The notes below the pieces were generated by a model. The model worked only from the letters and a program-made list of their open reading frames with translations. It had not been told where the DNA came from and did no database searches. Made by a program: the position numbers and the translations under genes. From Candidatus Desantisiibacteriota bacterium (GTDB lineage Bacteria; JACRDZ01): a stretch of 15,776 nt of DNA. Below are positions 1,171 through 15,120 of this stretch, one piece after another (positions within the stretch are counted from its first letter, which is position 1; the number at the start of each line of letters is the position of its first letter). The stretch lies in NCBI GenBank assembly GCA_016209155.1, contig JACQWU010000166.1:1-15776 (forward strand). The letters run 5' to 3'.

Positions 1171-1476
1171 ATGAAATTTAAAATATATTCATTAAAATCT
1201 ATTTCAATATGTGTATTATTTTTTTCTTTATATAATTATCTTTTCAGCAAAAATATTGAAAGTAAGAAGCAAGAGATAACCCTTAAGAAAGATATTGAAA
1301 ATATCCGTAAAAAAGTGGATTTCGTTATAGTGTCTATGCACTGGGGCACGGAATATCAATTAATACCTACAGAAAAACAAAAAGAAATTGCACATAAAGG
1401 AAATTTCCTCCCCTTTAAATTAAGCATTTATTTAGACTGGCTTATTTTTTCAGATCGATGCGCATACAGGTTATAA
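1171..1476 (+). pseudogene. CapA-family (poly-gamma-glutamate/capsule-type metallophosphatase) remnant
   Basis: The 101-codon frame opens with a hydrophobic signal-like segment (residues 1-27). It then jumps into the conserved family stretch DIENIRKKVDFVIVSMHWG (residues 41-59), followed by EYQLIPTEKQKEIAHK (61-76). In intact CapA proteins about 150 residues of the calcineurin-like phosphoesterase core precede this stretch, and an Ala-Gly-Ala-Asp then Gly-His-His-Pro-His metal motif follows it directly. Both are missing. After residue 76 (about base 1398) the frame has no family resemblance and runs antisense into the end of the minus-strand gene. I read it as a gene with an internal deletion and a 3' truncation. 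The family call rests on the HWG segment. Confidence 0.7.
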
Positions 1477-2411
1477 AAAAACTGTTTTACTTCAGATAGT
1501 TCTATGTCTATTATTATTTTTAGCTTTTCCTGTTCCCCCAAGCTCAATTGCTTGAAATATTCATCAGCAATCAGTGAATCCAATTTATCTTTAATATCAT
1601 TGTAATCTTGTTGAATATTATCTATATTATAATCAGTATACATTATTTCGCCTCCGGGAAAAACAGAAGCTTCTCTTATTGATAGTCCGGCTAAATTCTC
1701 CAATTGCCGGTAGATTTCCATCCTGTAACCGGTTAATGTTCTATTTCCGCCTCTTAAAGCCTGTATATATGTCCTGAAATCTGACGGATCAATTAACATT
1801 ATCAGGCGGCTTGCTATTTTATTCATATTCTCCTTAAATGTTATAGTGTGCAGTAAAAAAATTTCATTAGATATAACATCAAGAACTTGAGATAATTTAT
1901 CATAGAAATAATTTCCTTCCGCAATCATATTCATTATATTAGCGCCAATATCATCCTGCTTGCTGACAATTTTTTCATGTTTTTTGTCAGGACTTACTAC
2001 CAGGTATAAAAATGCCTGAGATTCGATCTGATTCATAATACTGAAATGATTCTTAAGATATTTTTGCCCTCCTTCAAAAAACATAATATATAATTCTCTT
2101 ACCACTATATCTTCATAAGATTTAGATTCTGAACCCTTCTGCGCACGATTAATAAGGTTTTTTAATTTTTTTTCAGCCGGGTTCTCTTCATTCATTATGT
2201 TTAATGAGATATCCTGTTTCTTCAAAATTGCTTTAAACCAATCAGGATATTTTCCGGCATGATATTTATCATAATACTCCTTTAGCGCCAGGGGGTCGGC
2301 CACTTTTACTTTTGTATTCATGTTTTGAGCATTCATTGCTGCTGCTTTTAACAATATTAAAATAATAAAAATAGTTTTAATGAGTATATCCTTTTTCCAT
2401 TTTTTTTTCAT
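1428..2411 (-). other. Probable original unit of the fused ORF: secreted protein of unknown function (about 327 residues)
   Basis: Met324 of the fused ORF is followed by a lysine-rich start and a hydrophobic stretch (IFIILILLKAAAMNAQ) that looks like a signal peptide cleaved after NAQ. The mature part is alpha-helix-like, polar and charged, with no cysteine cluster and no motif I recognise. It contains EEYD-type acidic helices and a central YIMFFEGGQKYLKNH segment. A GGGA purine run abuts the ATG, which is too close for a good ribosome site. The 3' end is convergent with the capA remnant and leaves no intergenic space. The protein is probably periplasmic or outer-membrane facing, with unknown function. 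Confidence 0.5.
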
Positions 2412-3380
2412 TCCCAGTTTTTTTTCACTTTGTATCTTCTCATGGGTAATAGGATTCATCCCTGTATAATAAATTGCTGTGGATATGGTCATGGGTGTCG
2501 GATAAAACTCCTGTATTTGTTCTATTTTTATTCTGTTTTTTTGCAGATAATTTTTTAATTCTTTTTCTGTTTTTTCTGAAGAACCCGGATGTCCAATTAT
2601 AAAATACGGAAGTAGAAATTGTTTTTTCCCGGATTCCTTACTTTTGGTATAAAACATTTTTGAAAAATTTTCATAAACTGATATAGGCGGTTTTGCCATT
2701 ATGTTTAGAATTGAGCGATCAGTGTGTTCGGGAGCAATTGATAATTGTCCGGGGGTATAATACTTTACCAGTTGTTCAATAAAATTATTATCAAGTAAAG
2801 CCATGTCATATCGTATTCCCGAATTAATGTAAACAGCTTTAATGTTTTTATTTTTTCTGATATTTTCAAGTAAAACAAGATATTTTGCGGAAGAACTGTT
2901 CAAATTTTTGCAGATAAAAGGATATAGGCAGCTTATTCTTCTGCATTTTTTTTGGAGTGCATCGTTTCCGCAGTATGTACCGTACATATTTGCAGTGGGA
3001 CCGCCGATGTCAGTGATTACGATATTCTGATTTTTTTTATGCGCTGTATTGTTTATAAGTATTGAGATTTCTTTATTAATCGACCCTATACTCCTGCTTT
3101 GCACTATTTTTCCCTGATGAATATAAAGTGAGCAGAAACTGCACCCGCCATAACATCCGCGATGTGAGGTTATGGAATTTTTAACTACCGAAAAAGCAGG
3201 AATATTTCCCTTGTATCCGGGATGGGGTTTATAAGTAAACGGTAATGCATATATTGCATCGAGTTCCTGTATAGAAAGAGGAAACGCAGGCTGATTTATC
3301 AGAATTCCGCGGGTACCGGTTTCCTGAAAAAGACGTGAAGCATTATATGGATTAAGATTTGATAATATAATACGGGTCAT
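1428..3380 (-). CDS. ygiQ: YgiQ-family radical SAM protein (N-terminally truncated) fused in frame to a secreted protein
   Basis: Residues 5-320 match the radical-SAM half of YgiQ (UPF0313). NPYNA (10-14) and the LPFTYKPHPGY region (46-56) precede the cluster motif C76-x3-C80-x2-C83, which binds the 4Fe-4S cluster and SAM. IGGPTANMYG (125-134), IAPEHTD (215-221), LPYFIIGHPG (257-266) and YYTGMNP (304-310) follow. The usual YgiQ C-terminal tail is absent. From Met324 (base 2411) the frame continues into an unrelated protein that begins with its own signal peptide. The YgiQ N-terminal domain lies in a separate frame upstream (3377-3754), so this ORF probably does not start naturally at its ATG (3380), which has no visible ribosome site. 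The YgiQ part is therefore likely non-functional. The fusion could be a deletion scar or an assembly error. Confidence 0.7.
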   Translation of the reverse strand: MTRIILSNLNPYNASRLFQETGTRGILINQPAFPLSIQELDAIYALPFTYKPHPGYKGNIPAFSVVKNSITSHRGCYGGCSFCSLYIHQGKIVQSRSIGSINKEISILINNTAHKKNQNIVITDIGGPTANMYGTYCGNDALQKKCRRISCLYPFICKNLNSSSAKYLVLLENIRKNKNIKAVYINSGIRYDMALLDNNFIEQLVKYYTPGQLSIAPEHTDRSILNIMAKPPISVYENFSKMFYTKSKESGKKQFLLPYFIIGHPGSSEKTEKELKNYLQKNRIKIEQIQEFYPTPMTISTAIYYTGMNPITHEKIQSEKKLGMKKKWKKDILIKTIFIILILLKAAAMNAQNMNTKVKVADPLALKEYYDKYHAGKYPDWFKAILKKQDISLNIMNEENPAEKKLKNLINRAQKGSESKSYEDIVVRELYIMFFEGGQKYLKNHFSIMNQIESQAFLYLVVSPDKKHEKIVSKQDDIGANIMNMIAEGNYFYDKLSQVLDVISNEIFLLHTITFKENMNKIASRLIMLIDPSDFRTYIQALRGGNRTLTGYRMEIYRQLENLAGLSIREASVFPGGEIMYTDYNIDNIQQDYNDIKDKLDSLIADEYFKQLSLGEQEKLKIIIDIELSEVKQFFYNLYAHRSEKISQSK

Positions 3381-3754
3381 TTCGGAAAAATCGGATTTGA
3401 AGGAAGATAAGGACGTTTTCCGGCAATCCCTTTTTCGCTATATGGATCATCGGAGCGTATTTTCCTTTGCGAGGTATAAAGGGATACCATTGAATCAAGG
3501 TTCCCTGCTGTGACTCCGAAAAAAAGCCGTGGACAGCCAAGTAGAGTAAAATCATGAGTGCTATGCCAGTCGGGCTGTGAAATTATTCCGACTTTAAGTC
3601 CTAAAGATTCTAAAAATCTTCCTATTAAAGCACCGGCGAAAGACGGATGATCAACATAAGCATCTGCCGAGATAATTATTACATCCAGTTCATTATACCC
3701 TATTTTTTTTGCTTCATTCAAATTTGTCGGCAAGAAATTAAATGTAGAATTCAT
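3377..3754 (-). pseudogene. ygiQ: YgiQ N-terminal domain fragment
   Basis: The fragment carries the start of the YgiQ_N domain: FLPTNLNEAKKIGYNELDV (7-25), DAYVDHPSFAGALIGR (31-46), VGIISQPDWHS (55-65), LFFGVTAGNLDSMV (78-91) and AGKRP (110-114). In intact YgiQ the text continues with ATLVY and the GGIEASLRR region, some 180-190 residues before the NPYNA segment. Here the frame diverges after GKRP and stops at 3377-3379. The next ORF starts at 3380 with the residues just before NPYNA. So the middle of the N-terminal domain has been deleted with loss of frame. No good ribosome site precedes the ATG. It lies 18 bases behind the deacetylase gene, so it was probably co-transcribed with it. Confidence 0.85.
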
Positions 3755-4751: not shown

Positions 4752-5138
4752 TTAAGTTACCAATCCAAATATTTTAGCGGCCTTATTCACTACTTCATCA
4801 GGATCAAATGGTTTGGTTAGATATTCATTTGCACCAACTTCCAGACCTCTTTGTTTGTCAATTTCCTGCCCTTTTGCAGTAAGCATGATTATATGCATCT
4901 TATCAAGTTTGTGTGTTTTCTTTAATGCTTCACACATATCATAACCATTCATTTTAGGCATCATCACATCAAGAAAAATTAAATTTGGTTTATGTTCTAA
5001 AGCCATTTCCAATCCTTTCTCCCCGTTATGAGCGATAAGTATTTCCACTCCTTTATCAGCAAAATCTTCTAATGCTTCTTCAAGGAGCGCTCTGATATAA
5101 GGTTCATCATCTACAATTAAAACTTTTTGGGTTATCAT
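4752..5138 (-). CDS. CheY-like single-domain response regulator
   Basis: This is a receiver domain without an output domain (128 residues). Acidic pocket D10/D11, phosphoacceptor D57 in FLDVMMPKMNG, switch threonine T87 in MLTAKG and K109 in LTKPF are all present, so it should be phosphorylatable. AGGAG at 5146-5150, seven bases before the ATG, fixes the start. It follows the 992-residue membrane regulator by 88 bases and precedes the deacetylase by 40 bases. The hybrid kinase further up the operon (8429-11146) is a plausible phosphodonor. With no output domain it would act through protein contacts; the target is unknown. Confidence 0.93.
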   Translation of the reverse strand: MITQKVLIVDDEPYIRALLEEALEDFADKGVEILIAHNGEKGLEMALEHKPNLIFLDVMMPKMNGYDMCEALKKTHKLDKMHIIMLTAKGQEIDKQRGLEVGANEYLTKPFDPDEVVNKAAKIFGLVT

Positions 5139-5226: not shown

Positions 5227-8205
5227 TTAGTATATCAGAAAGTTTAAAAATAACAAGCAATAAAATAACATAATTATCTGATGGCTTAAATAATATAAAA
5301 CCGGCTGTTTTTCCTCTTTTTGACTGAATGAATGCATAATCATTAAAAAAACGCAAAAAAGAAAAACTGTAAAAACAAGATTCCCCTGAATGAAACTGAG
5401 AAGTGAGAAAGACAAAGAAGTATTCATGAATAATAAATTCAGAGTGCTTGAGGTAACAGAGAGTTTTGAAAGCAGAGGAATATATTTAAGCTGAAGCGCA
5501 ACATTGGCTCCTAATGCCAGAGGTATATAAAATTTTAATGTGTCAAAATAGTGCTGGAAGTTATTTTTTCTATCCAATCCGTAAAACATAGAATTTGCAA
5601 GCCATATAGAAAGACCAATTATTACCGGCAGAGACCAGTATAGTAAACTAAAATTAAAATATGAAGAATATTTTTTTGATTCAGACACGGCAATTGCAAA
5701 TGGAATACTTAGATGGCAGCATATCAAAATAGAAGTTTTTTGCCCGAGTTGTTTGTCTTTAACAATATCCCATCCAGGCAGGCGTACGTTAAGCTGTGGT
5801 GAATTATTCTGGCATAACCGGATGCAGCGATAGCAAAGTTTACATAAAGTATTATTTGTAATAAATTGAGGATGAAGTGACATGGGACAGCCGCTGATTG
5901 TATCATTGCCTTTAAAGCAGTCATGGGTTTTGCATTTGTTAGCGCAAATATCCGGATTTGAACGTAATTCAATAATTGACGCTGCTGATAGAATTCCCGC
6001 TGTCCAGCCTAATCCGCAAATATAGCGGCAATAAGTATGGCGTTGAAATAAAATATTTATAGTAGCCGCAAAAGAAAATCTTATAGCCATTATAATTCCT
6101 GTTCGAAATGCGGAAGATTTCATAACAAATATCTCTTCAGCCCAGATAATTGTTAATAAACCAATAGTGATAAAATAATGCGTATTATCTTTAATAAAAG
6201 ATGGAACTTTTAAATTGAAGTGCTTTATTTTTCTTAATACAATTCCAAATTCATTAATTGGACAAATCCCGCACCAGGATCGGGCTAAAAAGAAAAAAGA
6301 AAAACAAAAAAAGGGCCACCACAAAGACCATGCAAGGAATGTTCCAAAATTAGCGCCAAATTTATTTTCATGAAAAAAAGCAAAATAGTAAATAAGAAAA
6401 ATAAATGAAGAACTTACAATGATGAGAGAATGAGGGAAAATACCTTTCCTTATTAAATTATAGACAGGCTTAATATTTAAAAGATTATAACTATATTTAC
6501 CTGCTGCTGCTGACATTTCAAGAAAAATATATTCGCTGGTAATAATTTCCGATTCTGTCAAAATACAGGCACGTTCGATAATATCTTTAAGTTCTTTTAT
6601 ATTCCCTATACGGTAATTATAGCTGATTAGTTTTTCATATGCTTTATTATCTATTCCTTTAATGCTTTTACCTAAAGAAATTGAATACTCTTTAACAAAA
6701 TATTCAATAAGCAGACCAATATCTTTTTTTCTTTCTTTTAAAGGAGTAATTTTTATAATATTTTTATTCAAAATTTCAAAAAGACCAATATCAAACTCGC
6801 CTTTCTCAATTTTTTTATCAAGTAATACAGAACTTGAAGCAACAATTCTTACATCATATTTTGATAATTGAACAGCTTCTTCTTTTTGCTCTTTCCCGGG
6901 TTTAAGAAATTCCGTCAGCTTTTCCCCGAGCTCTTTTGGAAGCCGGTCAATATTATGTAAAAAAAGCGTACCTCCGTCTGCTAATTCCATATAACTAAAC
7001 TCGGATTCCGGCTTCTTCGAATCATATATATTATTCGACCCCAGAAGTAATGCGTAACTTTTAGGGTCAGATGAAAATATTGCGCAGTCAATAGAAATAA
7101 AAGGACTTTTTTTTCTTGAACTTTCTCTGTGAATTTTGCGTGCTAAAAGATTTTTCCCTACGCCGTAATCTCCATAAATAAGATAAGGGATGGGATCCTG
7201 CGGTATTTTTTCATTCATACTGATGATACGTGAGGAACTGCTTATTAATTCTTTGTAAGTTTTTTCTTTTTCTTCATTTATTATTCTTGTAAGAGCTAAT
7301 TGCCTTTTATGTTCCCAGTTAATTTTTTCCAGATAAGCATTTTTTATTGCTATAGATGCCTGATTCGCAAGACTGAAAACAAGTTTTTCATCACGCGCAT
7401 TAAATTGATTTTCATTTTGAGAAGTCAGAATAATCACACCAAAAAGCTCATCTTTTATTTTTAACGGAATACCTAAAAGAGAAGTTGTATTACATTTACA
7501 GAATTCCATTTTTTGTTTTAATTTTATATCATTGACAATTTCCGAATTTTTTGTCTTAACAATTAAATTGGCAAGGACTTTATCAGGATGAGTTAATCTG
7601 GAAGACGGGCAAAGATTGCCTATAGAAGCCTTTAATTGCAATTCACCTTTTTGTATTTCCAGAAGATAGATAGCATAAGTATCTGCTTTAACAATATTTT
7701 TACTTTCAAGCAGTACTGATTTTAAAACATGATTGAGGTCAAGCTGTGAACTTATATTACCGCCGAATTTATATAATAAGTTTATTTCTCTGTAACTGCT
7801 TAATGTCTCCTGAAGCAGCTCTTTTTTTTCAATTTTAAGTTTTACGATTTCTGCTAATAAATCCTTAAGCACTAAGGATAAAGTAATAATTTTATCTTTT
7901 TCTGCCGTTTTACTTTTGACATAAATATAACCAAGAGGATCATCGTCATAAAAAAATCGGGATAAAACCCCGTTGTCGATTTCATAATATTCATCCTGAA
8001 ATCCGGTTTTTAAAATTATTTCTTTATTGATCGGATGTACAGATTGGCTATTAGAAGAAGTAACAAATTCACCATTAATATCATAAACAGAAAACTCATC
8101 ATCAAAATTTGATAAATTGGAAATTTCTTTTAATAATTTAGAAATGTCATTCAAATCATCAGAAAGCAGCCGTGACAGATTTATTTTTTTTCCCGATTTT
8201 CCCAT
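5227..8205 (-). CDS. GAF - degenerate sigma54-activator-type AAA+ - membrane polyferredoxin (NapH/NosR-like) fusion regulator
   Basis: A 992-residue multidomain protein. Residues 1-120 form a PAS-like or small sensory domain, followed by a coiled coil (about 118-150) and a GAF domain (about 152-295). The AAA+ domain (about 320-565) has an intact Walker A GDYGVGK (345-351). At the usual Walker B the text is GGTLFLHNID (411-420), with H and N in place of the catalytic Asp-Glu. The GAFTGA sigma54-contact loop is absent around 388-400, both arginine-finger positions are lost (FDIGLFEILN at 471-480), and no HTH follows. Instead residues from about 590 form some eight to ten membrane segments. They bear C645-x2-C648-P, C726-x3-C730, the C754/C758/C763/C773 group and a ferredoxin-like C788-x2-C791-x2-C794-x3-C798. 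Such Fe-S membrane modules occur in NapH, NosR and CcoG. Redox sensing at the membrane with a nucleotide-binding but non-hydrolysing AAA+ switch is my inference. AGGA at about 8212-8215 supports the start. Confidence 0.85.
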   Translation of the reverse strand: MGKSGKKINLSRLLSDDLNDISKLLKEISNLSNFDDEFSVYDINGEFVTSSNSQSVHPINKEIILKTGFQDEYYEIDNGVLSRFFYDDDPLGYIYVKSKTAEKDKIITLSLVLKDLLAEIVKLKIEKKELLQETLSSYREINLLYKFGGNISSQLDLNHVLKSVLLESKNIVKADTYAIYLLEIQKGELQLKASIGNLCPSSRLTHPDKVLANLIVKTKNSEIVNDIKLKQKMEFCKCNTTSLLGIPLKIKDELFGVIILTSQNENQFNARDEKLVFSLANQASIAIKNAYLEKINWEHKRQLALTRIINEEKEKTYKELISSSSRIISMNEKIPQDPIPYLIYGDYGVGKNLLARKIHRESSRKKSPFISIDCAIFSSDPKSYALLLGSNNIYDSKKPESEFSYMELADGGTLFLHNIDRLPKELGEKLTEFLKPGKEQKEEAVQLSKYDVRIVASSSVLLDKKIEKGEFDIGLFEILNKNIIKITPLKERKKDIGLLIEYFVKEYSISLGKSIKGIDNKAYEKLISYNYRIGNIKELKDIIERACILTESEIITSEYIFLEMSAAAGKYSYNLLNIKPVYNLIRKGIFPHSLIIVSSSFIFLIYYFAFFHENKFGANFGTFLAWSLWWPFFCFSFFFLARSWCGICPINEFGIVLRKIKHFNLKVPSFIKDNTHYFITIGLLTIIWAEEIFVMKSSAFRTGIIMAIRFSFAATINILFQRHTYCRYICGLGWTAGILSAASIIELRSNPDICANKCKTHDCFKGNDTISGCPMSLHPQFITNNTLCKLCYRCIRLCQNNSPQLNVRLPGWDIVKDKQLGQKTSILICCHLSIPFAIAVSESKKYSSYFNFSLLYWSLPVIIGLSIWLANSMFYGLDRKNNFQHYFDTLKFYIPLALGANVALQLKYIPLLSKLSVTSSTLNLLFMNTSLSFSLLSFIQGNLVFTVFLFCVFLMIMHSFSQKEEKQPVLYYLSHQIIMLFYCLLFLNFLIY

Positions 8206-8428: not shown

Positions 8429-11146
8429 TTATTTATCACGGGTAAGAACGATTATGCTGGATTTTTCAGAACCTTTAACAAATTTTAAAGTTTTAATAAG
8501 CTCATAATTGTTAGATTTAGAAATAATATCATCAATAATTATCAGATCGGGGTTTTCTTTTGTAGCCAGTTCCAGACCTTCTTTCCCATTATATGCAGAC
8601 ACAACCTCATACCCCTTTAAATTCAAGGCCTCTTGAATTGATCTGGATACTGATTTATCTTCTTCGATAATAAGGACTTTTTTATTTGCCGATTTTTTAC
8701 CGGAAAGAAGCTCGGACACAGATTTTATTAATTTTTCGGCCGCATTAACAGATTTAGTAATATAATCATCAGCCCCAAGCCTGAACCCTTTTTCTTTATC
8801 TTCAAACACAGAATGAATGAGTATAGGAATATTAGCTGTTTCTTTATTCGATTTTAAAATAGTTAAGATATCAAATCCGCTCAACCCCGGCATTAAAACA
8901 TCGCAAATTATTAAATCCGGTTTTTCTTCTCTGGTTTTTAATATAGCCTCATTTCCATCACAAGCCTCAATGACACGATAACCTTCATCTTCAAGCTGTT
9001 GTCTTAAAAGAGTTCTGATATGAGCTTCATCATCAACAACCAGAATAAGATGCCCTTTCTGTATCTTGCTTATTTTATCAAGAAAAATATTCCCGGCAAT
9101 AGGAACATATTCGATTTTTTCTTCTGCAGAAGAAGCCTCCATTATTACAGGTAAAGTGAAAATAAAATTGCTGCCTTTGCCATACTCGCTTTCAACCCAT
9201 ATTTTTCCGCCGTGCGCTTCGATTATCTCTTTGCAAATTGTAAGTCCGAGCCCTGTTCCTTTTGGCCTGTCACTTATTGTATCTCCCTCGCCAAGCTGTT
9301 TGAATTTTTCAAAAACTTTACTGATATCCTCCGGTTTGATACCAATTCCTGTATCTATTACTCTTATTTCAACATGGTCCTTAAATTTTTTCACAATAAA
9401 CGTAACCGACCCGCTATTTGTAAATTTAATAGCATTGCTTAAAAGATTTGTTGCAACCTGAATTAGGCGGTCTTTATCAACATTTACTTTTGGCATGCAT
9501 TCATCAGGTATAAATTTTATTTCCAGTTTTTTTTCATCGGCAAGCGAAGACGTAGCATAAATAGCCGTATTGCATATATCCTCAATTTTTACCGGTTCCA
9601 TCTTCCACTCAAGTTTTCCGGCTTCGATTTTAGCTAAATCAAGAACATTATTTATAAGTCTTGCCAATCGTTCACCTTCTGAGGTAATAATCTTAAGATT
9701 TGTTATTATTTTTTCGGCAGTACCCGAAATCCTGGGATCATTCATATTAAGAACGGTGATAATATCCCTTTCCAATTTCTTTTGAATTATTTTGGCAAAA
9801 CCAAGAATTGAAGTCAGAGGAGTTCGCAGTTCATGAGATACGATGGATAAAAAATCAGATTTCATTTTATCAATTTTTTTAACTTCTTTTATTTTTTTAG
9901 CCAATTCCTTATTGGATTCGCGCAATTTTTTTTCGAGATGCTTTTGTTTGGTAATATCTTTGCTTATCCCGACAGTCCCTATTACTTTCCCTTCCTTATC
10001 TTTTAATTCAGAGATACTCAAGCTTATATCTATAAGCCGTCCCTGTTTTGACATTAATTTTGTTTCATAATTGGAAATATTTCCTTCTTTTTTAATTTTT
10101 TCAACAATTCTTTTTCTTTCTTCCTTATGGCGGTAAAATCTTTCGGCAGAAGAACCAATCACTTCTTCTTTCTTATATCCAAGTATGTTCTCTCCTCCGG
10201 TATTAAACTCAACTATATTTGTAAAGGAATCTGTAGTAATAATCATATCGGCTGAATTATTCATAACGCCTTTTAGATAATCTGTGGTTTTTTCAAGCTC
10301 ACTATTTTTGTTTTCCAGTTGAGTAAGAAGACGGATTTTTTCGATTCCAAATGCAGCTTCCATTGCTAAAAGAGAAAGAGAAGCAATTGCCTCCGGTGAA
10401 AAATCCCTTATAACAAAATCATCAACATAAAGTATCCCTACTATTTTTCTTTCACAAACCAAAGTTACGGCAATTAAGGAAGCAACTTTTTCTTTCAGCA
10501 ATAATGGATTATTAAAAGACGGCTGCTTTGATAAATCATTAATAACTATCGGTTCACTGCTTTGAAGAATATATTCGGTCATCCCGCCTTTTCTAACATT
10601 GTAAACAATGGTCTGTGAGAATTCCCTGCTAAAACCCCGGGCAGTTAATAAATTAAGCGTATTTTCTTTTTCATCATAAAGAACAAGACTGCCTGCGGGG
10701 GTTTTTGTTAAATTTAAAGCGCAGTCAAGTATTATTCTTGAAATTTCCTCCATACTTTTTGATGAAGTTAATTTAAGTCCAAGATCTGAAATTATTTTTT
10801 GCGATTCGATGTTTTGCTTAAACTCTTTTCCGCGCTCATACATTTCAGTAAGTACATTCTGAAAAAATTTAAAATTTAGCGCATTTAGAAATGGGATATC
10901 TTTTTCTAATTTTATATTGAGTTTTTCTTTCCCCTCATCACTAAGTATTATTGACAGATTTTCTATTTTGTTAATATTATTTATGGAATCCTCATATATT
11001 ACTTTTTTATCCGGATATGTATATTGTTCATTATTTAACCATTCATTATTAATAAAACAATGAATTTGAATATCCTTTAAACTGCTCAAAATTTTAATTA
11101 TTTCCAGGTTTTCCTTATGAGCACAAACAAAAGCAAGTTTCATCAT
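8429..11146 (-). CDS. Hybrid sensor histidine kinase (GAF-PAS-HisKA-HATPase-REC-REC)
   Basis: A 905-residue soluble hybrid kinase without membrane segments. Residues 1-100 look like a degenerate Rossmann-type alpha/beta domain. A GAF domain (about 118-275) and a PAS domain (about 288-402) follow. A coiled coil leads to HisKA with SHELRTP (437-443) and phosphoacceptor H438. The ATPase domain has N571 in [10 protein letters not shown]1 DTGIG (598-602) and G2 GTGLGL (630-635). Receiver 1 (about 699-815) has D705/D706, D749 and K798. Receiver 2 (about 823-905) has E828/E829/D830 and D872. It stops at IVLTRDK, before the conserved lysine and last helix, so it appears truncated. Two ATGs begin the frame; AGGAGG at 11152-11157 lies five bases from the first and eight from the second (11143), so the second may be used. 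It begins 19 bases after the lipoprotein ORF and probably shares its transcript. Confidence 0.92.
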
Positions 11147-12317: not shown

Positions 12318-12346
12318 TTGACCATAATGATATGTGTGGTTATAAT
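12318..12346 (+). promoter_or_regulatory. Near-consensus sigma70 promoter for the kinase-cyclase module
   Basis: TTGACC at 12318-12323 and TATAAT at 12341-12346 are separated by exactly 17 bases. Only the last -35 base departs from consensus. Transcription should begin near 12353, giving a leader of about 43 bases before the ATG at 12396. The TTG inside the -35 box opens a longer reading frame, but it lies upstream of the expected transcript start and cannot be the true initiation codon. Confidence 0.75.
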
Positions 12347-12395
12347 AAAATTAAATTTTAGTTTTTGTATATATATAGGGTATAAGGGTGAAAAA

Positions 12396-14207
12396 ATGTT
12401 AGTAGATGATAGACCTAAAATAAAAATAAGATGTTATGCAATATTACCATTTGATAAAGAATTCCAACCATTAAAAGAAGCTATAAAAGAAGCTGCAAAA
12501 GAAATTGGTATAAAATTAATTTTAAAAGATGAAATAATACATAAACAATTACAAGTCACAGAGTTAGTTTATTCTGAAATAGCAAGATGTGATTTTGTTA
12601 TTGCAGATATCTCACAAAGCAATCCCAATATTATGTATGAAATTGGGATAGCTCATGCTATGGGAAAATTTGTTGCTTTTTTAATGAAAGCAGGGACAGA
12701 GATACCATTAGGATTAGGATTCCCAAAAGCTTTTATATTTGCATATGATACAACTCCAAATAAAATTGTTGAAGTTATAAATCATTTTAAAGAGCTTTTA
12801 GAGGATTTCATCCATGCTCCAAGAAAATATCGTCCCTTTATTCCTTTTCCTGCTAAAACCATACAGCTACCTTATATTGTCAATTTAGAGAGAATCGATC
12901 CTCGTGAATTTGAAAATCTGTGCTTTGAACTAATTACGCAAATGGGATTCCGAAGAGTTGAATGGGAGAAAGAATTTAAAGAGATTGATGTTGTAGCCAC
13001 CTTGTCCAAGAAAGACCCTGACGGATATGAATATCAAGAGTTATGGCTTATTTCAATGGGACGGAATTTTCCTGTTGAGATGATGATGGAATCTGATCAT
13101 TTTTTACATCGTATATTACGATACTCTGAAGGTCTTGGAGATCTATTTCCTCGATATAAAATCCGTTCTGATGTCCCAATAACTATTTTGATTATCTCAC
13201 GTGGGGAAGGTCCACAGCCAGAATTTTTAAATCATGAATTAAAAAAAATGGAAAATCGGTTAAAAGAACGACCTTATCCATTTACTGTTCGAATTAGGTT
13301 GTGGGATACTTCCTATCTGACAGATCTTATTCAGCAATATCCCCAAATAGCTTTTAAATATTTTTCTGAAGAAGCACGAGTTAAGTCAAAATACCGGAAA
13401 ACACCTGAAGAGATGTATGAAGAGAATGTGCAGCTAATTGAACGGCTGCAAATAACTCTTAATGACCTTAAAGAAGAAAAAAAGAAGCGATTTATTGCTG
13501 AAAGAGATGCTGCATGGAAAGATGTTGCGTTTAAAGCATCTCATAATTTAGGTAATCCTATAGATGCCATTGATACTTTTCTTCAAAGCTTAAAAGAAAG
13601 ATTAAAGGAAAAACAGATTGATAAAGCTTTTCATATAGCAAATGAAATGGAAACCTCTATCGAACAATCTAAAACAATAATTGCGCAATTTAAATCACTC
13701 ATAAAAGCTCAAGAAATCAGTACTCGTCCTATGGATTTAGTGCCGATAATACAACATTCATGTAAATCTGCTGAAGAAAAAGGTGTAATTGTCGATTGTA
13801 AAGTGATAGAAAATTGTCCACAGGTGATGATTGACCCTGATAAGATTTCCGAATGTTTCAATGAGCTTGTTGCAAATGCAATTCACTGGTTTAACAAGTC
13901 TGATAAAAAGATTACGATAAGTGTAACAAGACCAGCAAAAAAAGAGTTGCCGGAAAATATGGATACAACTGAGGATTATTTAAAAATACTTTTTGAAGAT
14001 AATGGATGTGGTATCTTATTAGAAAATAAAGAAAAAATATTTGCTCCATTTTTTACAACTTATATACATGGGATAGGACTTGGGCTTTCTCAAGTTAAAA
14101 CGATTATTGAAGGGCATGGAGGATATATCTCGGAATTTGGGAAACCTGATGAAGGGGCATCATTTGAAATATATCTTCCTGTTGTGAAGAAAATAAGGAG
14201 AAAATAA
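12396..14207 (+). CDS. Histidine kinase with deoxyribosyltransferase/TIR-like and restriction-endonuclease-like sensor domains
   Basis: The start is ATG 12396, with AGGG at 12385-12388 and downstream of the promoter, giving 603 residues. Residues 10-139 form a nucleoside-deoxyribosyltransferase/TIR-like (DRHyd-type) domain. It has CYAILPFDKEF, CDFVIADIS and NPNIMYEIGIAHAMGK, with Glu82 at the family's nucleophile position. Residues 164-324 resemble the Mrr-type PD-(D/E)XK fold: DPREFENLC, MGF, and D198 in EIDVVA. The strand that should carry (Q/E)xK reads S220-M221-G222 (in LWLISMGRN), so nuclease activity is doubtful. A coiled coil (about 340-372) leads to a DHp-like helix with H383 in FKASHNLGNP. 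The ATPase domain has N494, DNGCG (535-539) and GIGLGL (559-564). No membrane segment is present, so it should be a cytoplasmic sensor. The receiver gene begins two bases after its stop, which makes it the likely partner. What it senses is unknown; nucleotide metabolites or damaged DNA are guesses from the domain families. Confidence 0.82.
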   Translation: MLVDDRPKIKIRCYAILPFDKEFQPLKEAIKEAAKEIGIKLILKDEIIHKQLQVTELVYSEIARCDFVIADISQSNPNIMYEIGIAHAMGKFVAFLMKAGTEIPLGLGFPKAFIFAYDTTPNKIVEVINHFKELLEDFIHAPRKYRPFIPFPAKTIQLPYIVNLERIDPREFENLCFELITQMGFRRVEWEKEFKEIDVVATLSKKDPDGYEYQELWLISMGRNFPVEMMMESDHFLHRILRYSEGLGDLFPRYKIRSDVPITILIISRGEGPQPEFLNHELKKMENRLKERPYPFTVRIRLWDTSYLTDLIQQYPQIAFKYFSEEARVKSKYRKTPEEMYEENVQLIERLQITLNDLKEEKKKRFIAERDAAWKDVAFKASHNLGNPIDAIDTFLQSLKERLKEKQIDKAFHIANEMETSIEQSKTIIAQFKSLIKAQEISTRPMDLVPIIQHSCKSAEEKGVIVDCKVIENCPQVMIDPDKISECFNELVANAIHWFNKSDKKITISVTRPAKKELPENMDTTEDYLKILFEDNGCGILLENKEKIFAPFFTTYIHGIGLGLSQVKTIIEGHGGYISEFGKPDEGASFEIYLPVVKKIRRK

Positions 14208-14209
14208 AT

Positions 14210-14557
14210 ATGGCGAACATACTCATCGTTGATGATAAAGAGGATAATCTAAAGGCATATAAATTGGCGTTAGAAGATGCCGGATTGGGATGGAATATTT
14301 TAACTGCCAGAAATGAATCCGTAGCTCAAAAAATCATCATGGAAACACACCCAATAGATGTAATCATAACAGACCTTGTTATGATTGATGAACAAAGTGG
14401 TATGGAGGTTCTACGTTTTGCGAAACAAAAAGATCCATTGGTTATGGTTATTATTTTAACAGCATTTGAAAAAAAACTTGATCGTTACAAAACATTCGAA
14501 TTAGGTGCGTTTGATTGTCTTTCAAAAGGTGTTCCACAGTTGTCTTTTGGGATATAA
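14210..14557 (+). CDS. Response-regulator receiver domain, N-terminal half of a likely receiver-cyclase protein
   Basis: The receiver has D8/D9, phosphoacceptor D55 in IITDLVM, T84 in ILTAFE and K106 in CLSKG. The last helix is missing. After SKGVP (about 14534) the frame stops at 14555-14557, while the cyclase begins in another frame within the same bases. AAGGAG at 14194-14199 and the two-base gap to the kinase gene support the start and operon coupling. In related response regulators a linker of roughly a hundred residues joins the receiver to the cyclase (from general knowledge). Here that linker appears deleted out of frame. The receiver alone might still fold poorly. Confidence 0.8.
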   Translation: MANILIVDDKEDNLKAYKLALEDAGLGWNILTARNESVAQKIIMETHPIDVIITDLVMIDEQSGMEVLRFAKQKDPLVMVIILTAFEKKLDRYKTFELGAFDCLSKGVPQLSFGI

Positions 14558-15120
14558 GGGGATTCTCTGCCCTCTGTGAAATTCTCAAAGCACACCCTAC
14601 TTTAATAGCGGGTTTTCTCCGAGAATATTTTAAAGTAGCATCGGAAGTTATTTTTAAGCATCAAGGAGTATTAGATAAATTTATTGGAGATGGTGTAATG
14701 GCTTTATTTGGAGCTATAAACGGTAAAGATCCGGAAGGTCGTCATGAAGCTATTAATGCAACTAAAGCTGCTATTGAAATGAAAGATTGTTTTAGTCAGG
14801 TATTGAAAAGCTGGATGGAACAATGGGTATTATATACACCTCAAACTATAGACATAGGTCTGGGATGTGGAATTCATACTGGTGAGACTTTAGTCGGAAA
14901 TGTTGGCACTGAAAATCGGGATCATTTTACAGCTTTAGGCCCTCATGTAAATTTTGCCCAAAGAATAGAGAGTCGAGCAAATAAAGGTAAAATTCTTATA
15001 TCAGCAAGTACAAAAGCAAGGATTTCCGAACATTTTGAATTGAAAAATATAGACACGATTAATGATGTGAAAAATATATCCGGGAATTTTGATATTTTTG
15101 AAGTTGTTAAATTAAAATAA
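14515..15120 (+). CDS. Class III adenylate/guanylate cyclase catalytic domain
   Basis: The domain contains all the expected catalytic residues. Metal-binding D13 lies in FWDIRGFS and D59 in IGDGVMALFG. Base-selecting K55 lies in LDKFIGDG and T139 in FTALG. Transition-state N146 and R150 lie in VNFAQR. The Lys/Thr pair is that of bacterial adenylate cyclases, so cAMP is the best guess. The frame opens with TTG at 14515 and has a weak AGGTG at 14503-14507. Homology begins only at STVVFWD (about 14533), so the start is uncertain. It overlaps the receiver ORF by 43 bases in another frame. A single frame restoration would give one receiver-cyclase polypeptide. The operon order (kinase, receiver, cyclase) implies phosphorylation-controlled cyclic-nucleotide output. 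No cyclic-nucleotide-binding effector with a CNB domain is seen in the window. Confidence 0.85.
   Translation: MSFKRCSTVVFWDIRGFSALCEILKAHPTLIAGFLREYFKVASEVIFKHQGVLDKFIGDGVMALFGAINGKDPEGRHEAINATKAAIEMKDCFSQVLKSWMEQWVLYTPQTIDIGLGCGIHTGETLVGNVGTENRDHFTALGPHVNFAQRIESRANKGKILISASTKARISEHFELKNIDTINDVKNISGNFDIFEVVKLK

Follow-up and report, generated by a model that had tools for sequence, protein, structure and literature searches.

A protein family joining a degenerate NtrC-type AAA+ domain to a NapH-related Fe-S membrane tail in at least eight bacterial phyla

The gene at 5227-8205 of the window (the whole stretch of 15,776 nucleotides analysed here) is a member of a protein family that appears to be undescribed and occurs in at least eight bacterial phyla. 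Its proteins have a sensory domain and a degenerate NtrC-type AAA+ domain fused to a NapH-related Fe-S membrane tail. We tentatively propose, with a little less than even confidence, that in this family the AAA+ domain became the non-hydrolysing allosteric head of a membrane quinol/Fe-S module, turning a regulator into an electron-transfer protein that is under control and linked to respiration or sulfur. That these are membrane redox proteins under the control of a cytosolic sensory head is the explanation that we prefer, at about even odds. No description of the architecture or of the family was found in the open-access literature, most subscription papers not being searchable.

The reading frame, on the minus strand, comprises 992 codons and is uninterrupted on translation. 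Pfam models identify a GAF domain (residues 155-289), a Sigma54_activat domain (325-481) and an AAA_lid_14 domain (490-567), and residues from about 572 onwards make up the membrane tail. The features of the gene and of its two neighbours are as follows.

5227-8205, minus strand: fused gene, GAF, degenerate NtrC-type AAA+ and NapH-related Fe-S membrane tail, 992 amino acids
7915-8100, minus strand: N-terminal mixed alpha/beta region, residues 36-97 (AF2 model; PDE5A tandem-GAF match over residues 12-298)
7339-7743, minus strand: GAF domain, residues 155-289 (Pfam GAF_3, 3.7e-13; 3ci6, Z 18.6)
6505-7275, minus strand: AAA+ core and lid of NtrC1/PspF fold, residues 311-567 (Pfam; 1ny5 match)
7150-7173, minus strand: intact Walker A, GDYGVGKN, residues 345-352 (translation; alignments)
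6997-7038, minus strand: site of the L1/GAFTGA loop, replaced by SNNIYDSKKPESEF (alignment with four canonical activators)
6946-6969, minus strand: Walker B strand TLFLHNID, with His-Asn in place of Asp-Glu (same alignment)
6769-6795, minus strand: site of both arginine fingers (FREDLYYRL), here FDIGLFEIL (same alignment)
5230-6492, minus strand: NapH-related membrane tail, residues 572-992 (model pLDDT 91.9, pTM 0.90; NapH profile matches)
6262-6273, minus strand: cysteine group 1, C645xxC648P (invariant, 95/95)
6016-6030, minus strand: cysteine group 2, C726xxxC730, followed by Gly where Pro is usual (cysteines invariant, 95/95)
5887-5946, minus strand: cysteine group 3, C754, C758, C763 and C773 (invariant, 95/95)
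5812-5844, minus strand: cysteine group 4, ferredoxin-type, C788, C791, C794 and C798, followed by Gln for the usual Pro (cysteines invariant, 95/95)
8429-11146, minus strand: hybrid histidine kinase GAF-PAS-HisKA-HATPase-REC-REC, upstream in a conserved trio (Pfam)
4752-5138, minus strand: single-domain receiver, downstream in the trio (Pfam)

The full-length model (pLDDT 82, pTM 0.55) matches NtrC1 over residues 311-562 (Z 24.3; 1ny5, rmsd 3.0, 235 aligned) and a GAF structure over residues 134-296 (Z 18.6). Residues 36-97, the least conserved part of the protein (35-36% identity to the orthologues), probably represent a GAF-like domain, either incomplete or a second one, as judged from the model. 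Within the GAF domain, all four proteins of the window's clade have C199, H206, C236 and C238, residues of the head that may possibly bind a metal or an Fe-S cluster.

Walker A is intact. The stretch corresponding to GAFTGA reads NNIYDSKKPESEF, Walker B reads GTLFLHNID with His-Asn at residues 417-418, and the sensor I Asn is gone, as are both arginine fingers. When the window protein is aligned with four canonical activators from its own genome, these are seen to retain all motifs lost here. An HTH domain is absent from the Pfam hits of the window protein and from the families found most often in 49 members, and the tail directly succeeds the lid. The sequence-only reading had described this arrangement (GAF, NtrC-type AAA+, membrane tail with four cysteine groups, intact Walker A, lost motifs, no HTH), and its description is accurate.

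The same losses recur in the close homologues. The window's genome (3.08 Mb, 352 contigs) carries a paralogue, C328 (58% identity), and two other genomes of the phylum carry orthologues (60% and 59%); every motif loss is common to all four proteins. The paralogue gene is found downstream of rpoN, at a distance of about 3.5 kb. Further copies with the order cNMP-GAF-GAF-AAA+-tail are present in these two relatives (L044 and L046), and a fragment at a contig edge (L008) in the window's genome. In a further copy, the cNMP-AAA+-tail homologue of G002 (L043, G002:C177), a TAA interrupts the frame within the AAA+ region.

A profile of the tail, searched over 386 genomes, gave matches in 24 genomes, many in long frames, and 80 loci came from scanning named genomes. 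From these two sources 95 fused proteins were drawn and aligned, all with the order GAF or Crp-like domain, degenerate AAA+ domain and membrane Fe-S tail. They come from Cyanobacteriota, Thermodesulfobacteriota, Nitrospirota, Acidobacteriota, Bacillota, Planctomycetota, MAGs labelled Pseudomonadota and the window's own phylum; by record title, the carriers include Nostoc, Anabaena, Leptolyngbya, Thermosynechococcus, Desulfosediminicola, Desulfosporosinus, Desulfomonile, Nitrospirae, Planctomycetota and Thermoanaerobaculia. Pfam searches of 49 members found Sigma54_activat (PF00158) and the lid (PF25601) in all 49, Fer4_5 in 46, cNMP_binding in 43 and GAF in 7.

All 12 cysteines of the tail are kept in 95/95 proteins, while GAFTGA occurs in 0/95 and the Walker B Asp-Glu in none of the 94 rows that have the position. 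The Walker B pair is mostly NN (53 rows) or xN/xH, and one of D or E is retained in some members. Cyanobacterial members have a shorter GAFTGA loop or none, other members show DSFSFA or GGHSFA at its place, and the two arginine fingers are missing across the alignment. The alignment supports the clade predicted beforehand, in which the tail travels with AAA+ domains devoid of GAFTGA and of a working Walker B. The Walker A Lys is present in 86/95 proteins (Arg in 5), and the preceding Gly is replaced by Glu in 49/95. The conserved Lys speaks for the "nucleotide-gated" mode of action suggested earlier, but the frequent Glu and the loss of Walker B, sensor I and the fingers make it doubtful. From the alignment, the AAA+ part most likely no longer hydrolyses ATP.

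The absence of catalytic motifs could in principle indicate an ordinary activator that has decayed or been misassembled. Homologues with normal motifs, which would have marked the window copy as a decayed one, were sought and amount to 0/95: the same losses are found in 95 proteins of many phyla. The fusion also occurs in isolates and on finished replicons, e.g., the complete chromosome of Desulfosediminicola flagellatus and two complete cyanobacterial plasmids. Estimates of dN/dS in three close pairs, for the AAA+ part and the Fe-S core respectively, are 0.064/0.044, 0.042/0.064 and 0.099/0.020, rough values given that synonymous sites are near saturation. On these sequence comparisons the AAA+ head is clearly under purifying selection (dN/dS 0.04-0.10) and is not drifting. 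Both decay and misassembly were rejected on these grounds, and we consider either next to impossible.

Motif alignment, family alignment and trees agree with the earlier view that the protein descends from an NtrC-type activator whose sigma54 function was lost. One branch (99/97) splits the fused tails from 13 stand-alone tails, and one branch (100/99) splits the AAA+ parts of the family from 22 canonical domains, which were chosen by their GAFTGA motif. The AAA+ tree becomes ambiguous once five other degenerate AAA+ domains are added; the test does not reject a single clade for the family (p-AU 0.58). The simplest reading of these phylogenies, though not a proven one, would be a single fusion event with later spread. 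Another degenerate NtrC-type AAA+ domain lacking GAFTGA was observed in L175 (G001:C50), where it is fused to GAF, PAS and histidine kinase domains in one protein.

The DNA-binding domain of sigma54 was found in the window's genome, in its phylum and in other non-cyanobacterial carriers. None was found above the cut-off in the three cyanobacterial carriers examined; among 146 genomes of the cyanobacterial phylum, the fused family is present in 40 and PF04552 scores above the cut-off in 1. By these searches, the family appears to be conserved even in bacteria without sigma54, the usual partner of such motors. Since the motifs are missing and most carrier cyanobacterial genomes have no sigma54 domain above the cut-off, the fused protein is not expected to remodel this factor. 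It could instead be a membrane-tethered transcription regulator that acts without sigma54 in the manner of HupR or VpsR. Activators that lack a working GAFTGA and do not use sigma54 exist, and a VpsR structure (7v2b) is among the structural matches of the window protein (Z 22.6). However, HupR and VpsR retain an HTH; here none was found and the C-terminus lies in the membrane, and we regard such a regulator as improbable.

In the tail of the window protein the 12 cysteines form four groups and several membrane helices are predicted; hydropathy and charge place the cysteine loops on the cytosolic side. In the window copy the Pro of two CP motifs (residues 731 and 799) is lost, giving CxxxCG and CxxxCQ; the paralogue and the orthologues retain it. 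NapH models match 61/62 tails and the NosR model 41/62, all far below the curated cut-offs (30.3 bits against 213 for the window tail with the NapH model). The matches support the assignment to an Fe-S membrane module of the NapH/NosR type. The CcoG model gives a weak match in 1/62 tails, the window's tail not being among the matches. A PDB sequence search with the tail returned no match, and fold searches gave no meaningful one (best E 0.36 in Foldseek; best Z 7.5 in the other search), a null result that leaves room for a solved relative. Stand-alone tails, of 450-700 amino acids, adjoin NapG-like ferredoxins in several genomes and, in one case, a DUF1775 protein.

Homology, the invariant cysteines and the NapG-linked stand-alone relatives lead us to view the tail as a likely route from quinol to [4Fe-4S] clusters. 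In the mechanism that we propose, membrane quinol would be the electron source of the NapH-type tail, and cytosol-facing [4Fe-4S] clusters would carry the electrons onward. The head would consist of a sensory domain (GAF here, Crp-like in most relatives) and a structurally kept, non-hydrolysing NtrC-type AAA+ part, probably assembled as a ring or other oligomer. Sensory head and AAA+ part would occupy the place of the sensor and coupling domains of NtrC proteins, and the tail that of the DNA-binding domain. Upon ligand binding the head might act as a switch or gate for electron flow, or serve to assemble the module, with the AAA+ part as a structural or nucleotide-sensing coupler between sensory domain and tail. 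Canonical cAMP binding by the Crp-like heads was rejected: outside the window's clade, the strict phosphate-cassette pattern occurs in 0/61 cyanobacterial and 11/30 other members, as counted by a crude regular expression that is no proof and leaves ligand binding by these heads unsure.

The electron-transfer reading is favoured by the contrast between the cysteines, kept in every member, and the Walker B Asp-Glu and GAFTGA, kept in none, as well as by purifying selection on the AAA+ part of the same order as that on the Fe-S core. One cyanobacterial subclade is moreover linked to sulfur genes, PetC and cytochrome bd. In five of its loci (L089, L109, L135, L182 in AP018309.1 and L183 in NZ_CP112877.1; two on complete plasmids), cysK lies within about 50 bases downstream of the fused gene, and rhodanese, DsrE, CoA-disulfide reductase, PetC, cytochrome bd or Hdr-like genes are found near some copies. 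Against this reading, the tail scores far below the NapH cut-off, its fold gave no meaningful solved match, and no recurrent cluster of ferredoxin, reductase or NapG-like genes was seen beside fused members among the neighbours profiled.

Information could also flow in the other direction, the tail reading the quinone pool and the head signalling by contact to a partner, which in the window's phylum would be the hybrid kinase or the receiver. The head descends from a regulator; NosR, a profile relative of the tail, has regulatory as well as electron-transfer roles; and the NapG-like partner cluster was not seen beside fused members. Three genomes of the phylum share the order hybrid kinase, fused protein, receiver (58-73% identity) and differ in the genes flanking this trio; the order is the same in G001 and G003, and the window's kinase and receiver are 66% and 73% identical to those of the G003 trio. 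In this phylum the two neighbours probably belong to the circuit of the fused protein, also under the electron-transfer reading. In contrast, neither the paralogue C328 nor most members in other phyla have conserved neighbours, and a universal partnership with kinase or receiver was rejected outside the window's phylum. The output domain, moreover, is gone. We consider such a redox sensor possible but somewhat doubtful. The sequence-only reading had proposed a redox sensor that signals by contact, together with kinase and receiver neighbours: the neighbours stand for the three genomes but not for most members elsewhere, and contact signalling is one of two directions, a regulated electron-transfer protein fitting at least as well.

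Elsewhere in the window, a receiver frame overlaps a class III nucleotide cyclase frame at 14210-15120; the two are in different frames and may be one frameshifted gene. The protein encoded at 12318-14207 combines a histidine kinase-type ATPase with a Nuc_deoxyrib_tr-like domain and a part that weakly resembles Mrr. At 1428-3754, a radical-SAM (YgiQ-like) gene extends across two frames and is joined to a secreted-protein-like C-terminus.

In public databases, members are annotated as 'nitrogen assimilation regulatory protein' or 'cyclic nucleotide-binding domain-containing protein', and curated models place them among sigma54 activators. The members lack every part needed for sigma54 action, and re-annotation would remove a false regulator from cyanobacterial genomes. 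One plasmid member shares its product name with slr1529 of Synechocystis, a possible member of the family; slr1529 is reported to be down under high copper (ratio 0.29; PMC4182526) and under iron deprivation (PMC3516471). If the regulated electron-transfer mechanism proposed above is true, a transcription motor driven by ATP has found a second use as a passive coupler in membrane redox chemistry, and the family provides a redox-control protein that can be tested in cyanobacteria amenable to genetics.

With bacterial enhancer-binding proteins of the NtrC, NorR and NifA type the family shares the fold (1ny5, Z 24.3), the order of sensor followed by AAA+ with lid, and Walker A; it differs in lacking GAFTGA, the Walker B Asp-Glu, the arginine fingers and the HTH, and in occurring in genomes with no sigma54 domain above the cut-off. 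The degenerate or sigma54-independent activators HupR, VpsR and TyrR have lost the sigma54-contact loop, and their AAA+ domain is of the same family (VpsR structure match, Z 22.6). These activators are soluble and bind DNA, whereas the fused proteins have a membrane redox module in place of the HTH. NapH/MauN, the quinol dehydrogenase ferredoxin subunit, has the same membrane helices, two short cysteine pairs and two four-cysteine ferredoxin sets. Unlike it, the fused tail scores far below the cut-off, has a longer C-terminal membrane part, carries a regulatory head and has no NapG-like neighbour that we saw. NosR, for which regulatory and electron-transfer roles are both reported, is likewise a membrane polyferredoxin, and its model matches 41/62 tails; the window protein differs in having no FMN-binding domain among its Pfam hits (E up to 1) and in having a cytosolic GAF/AAA+ head.
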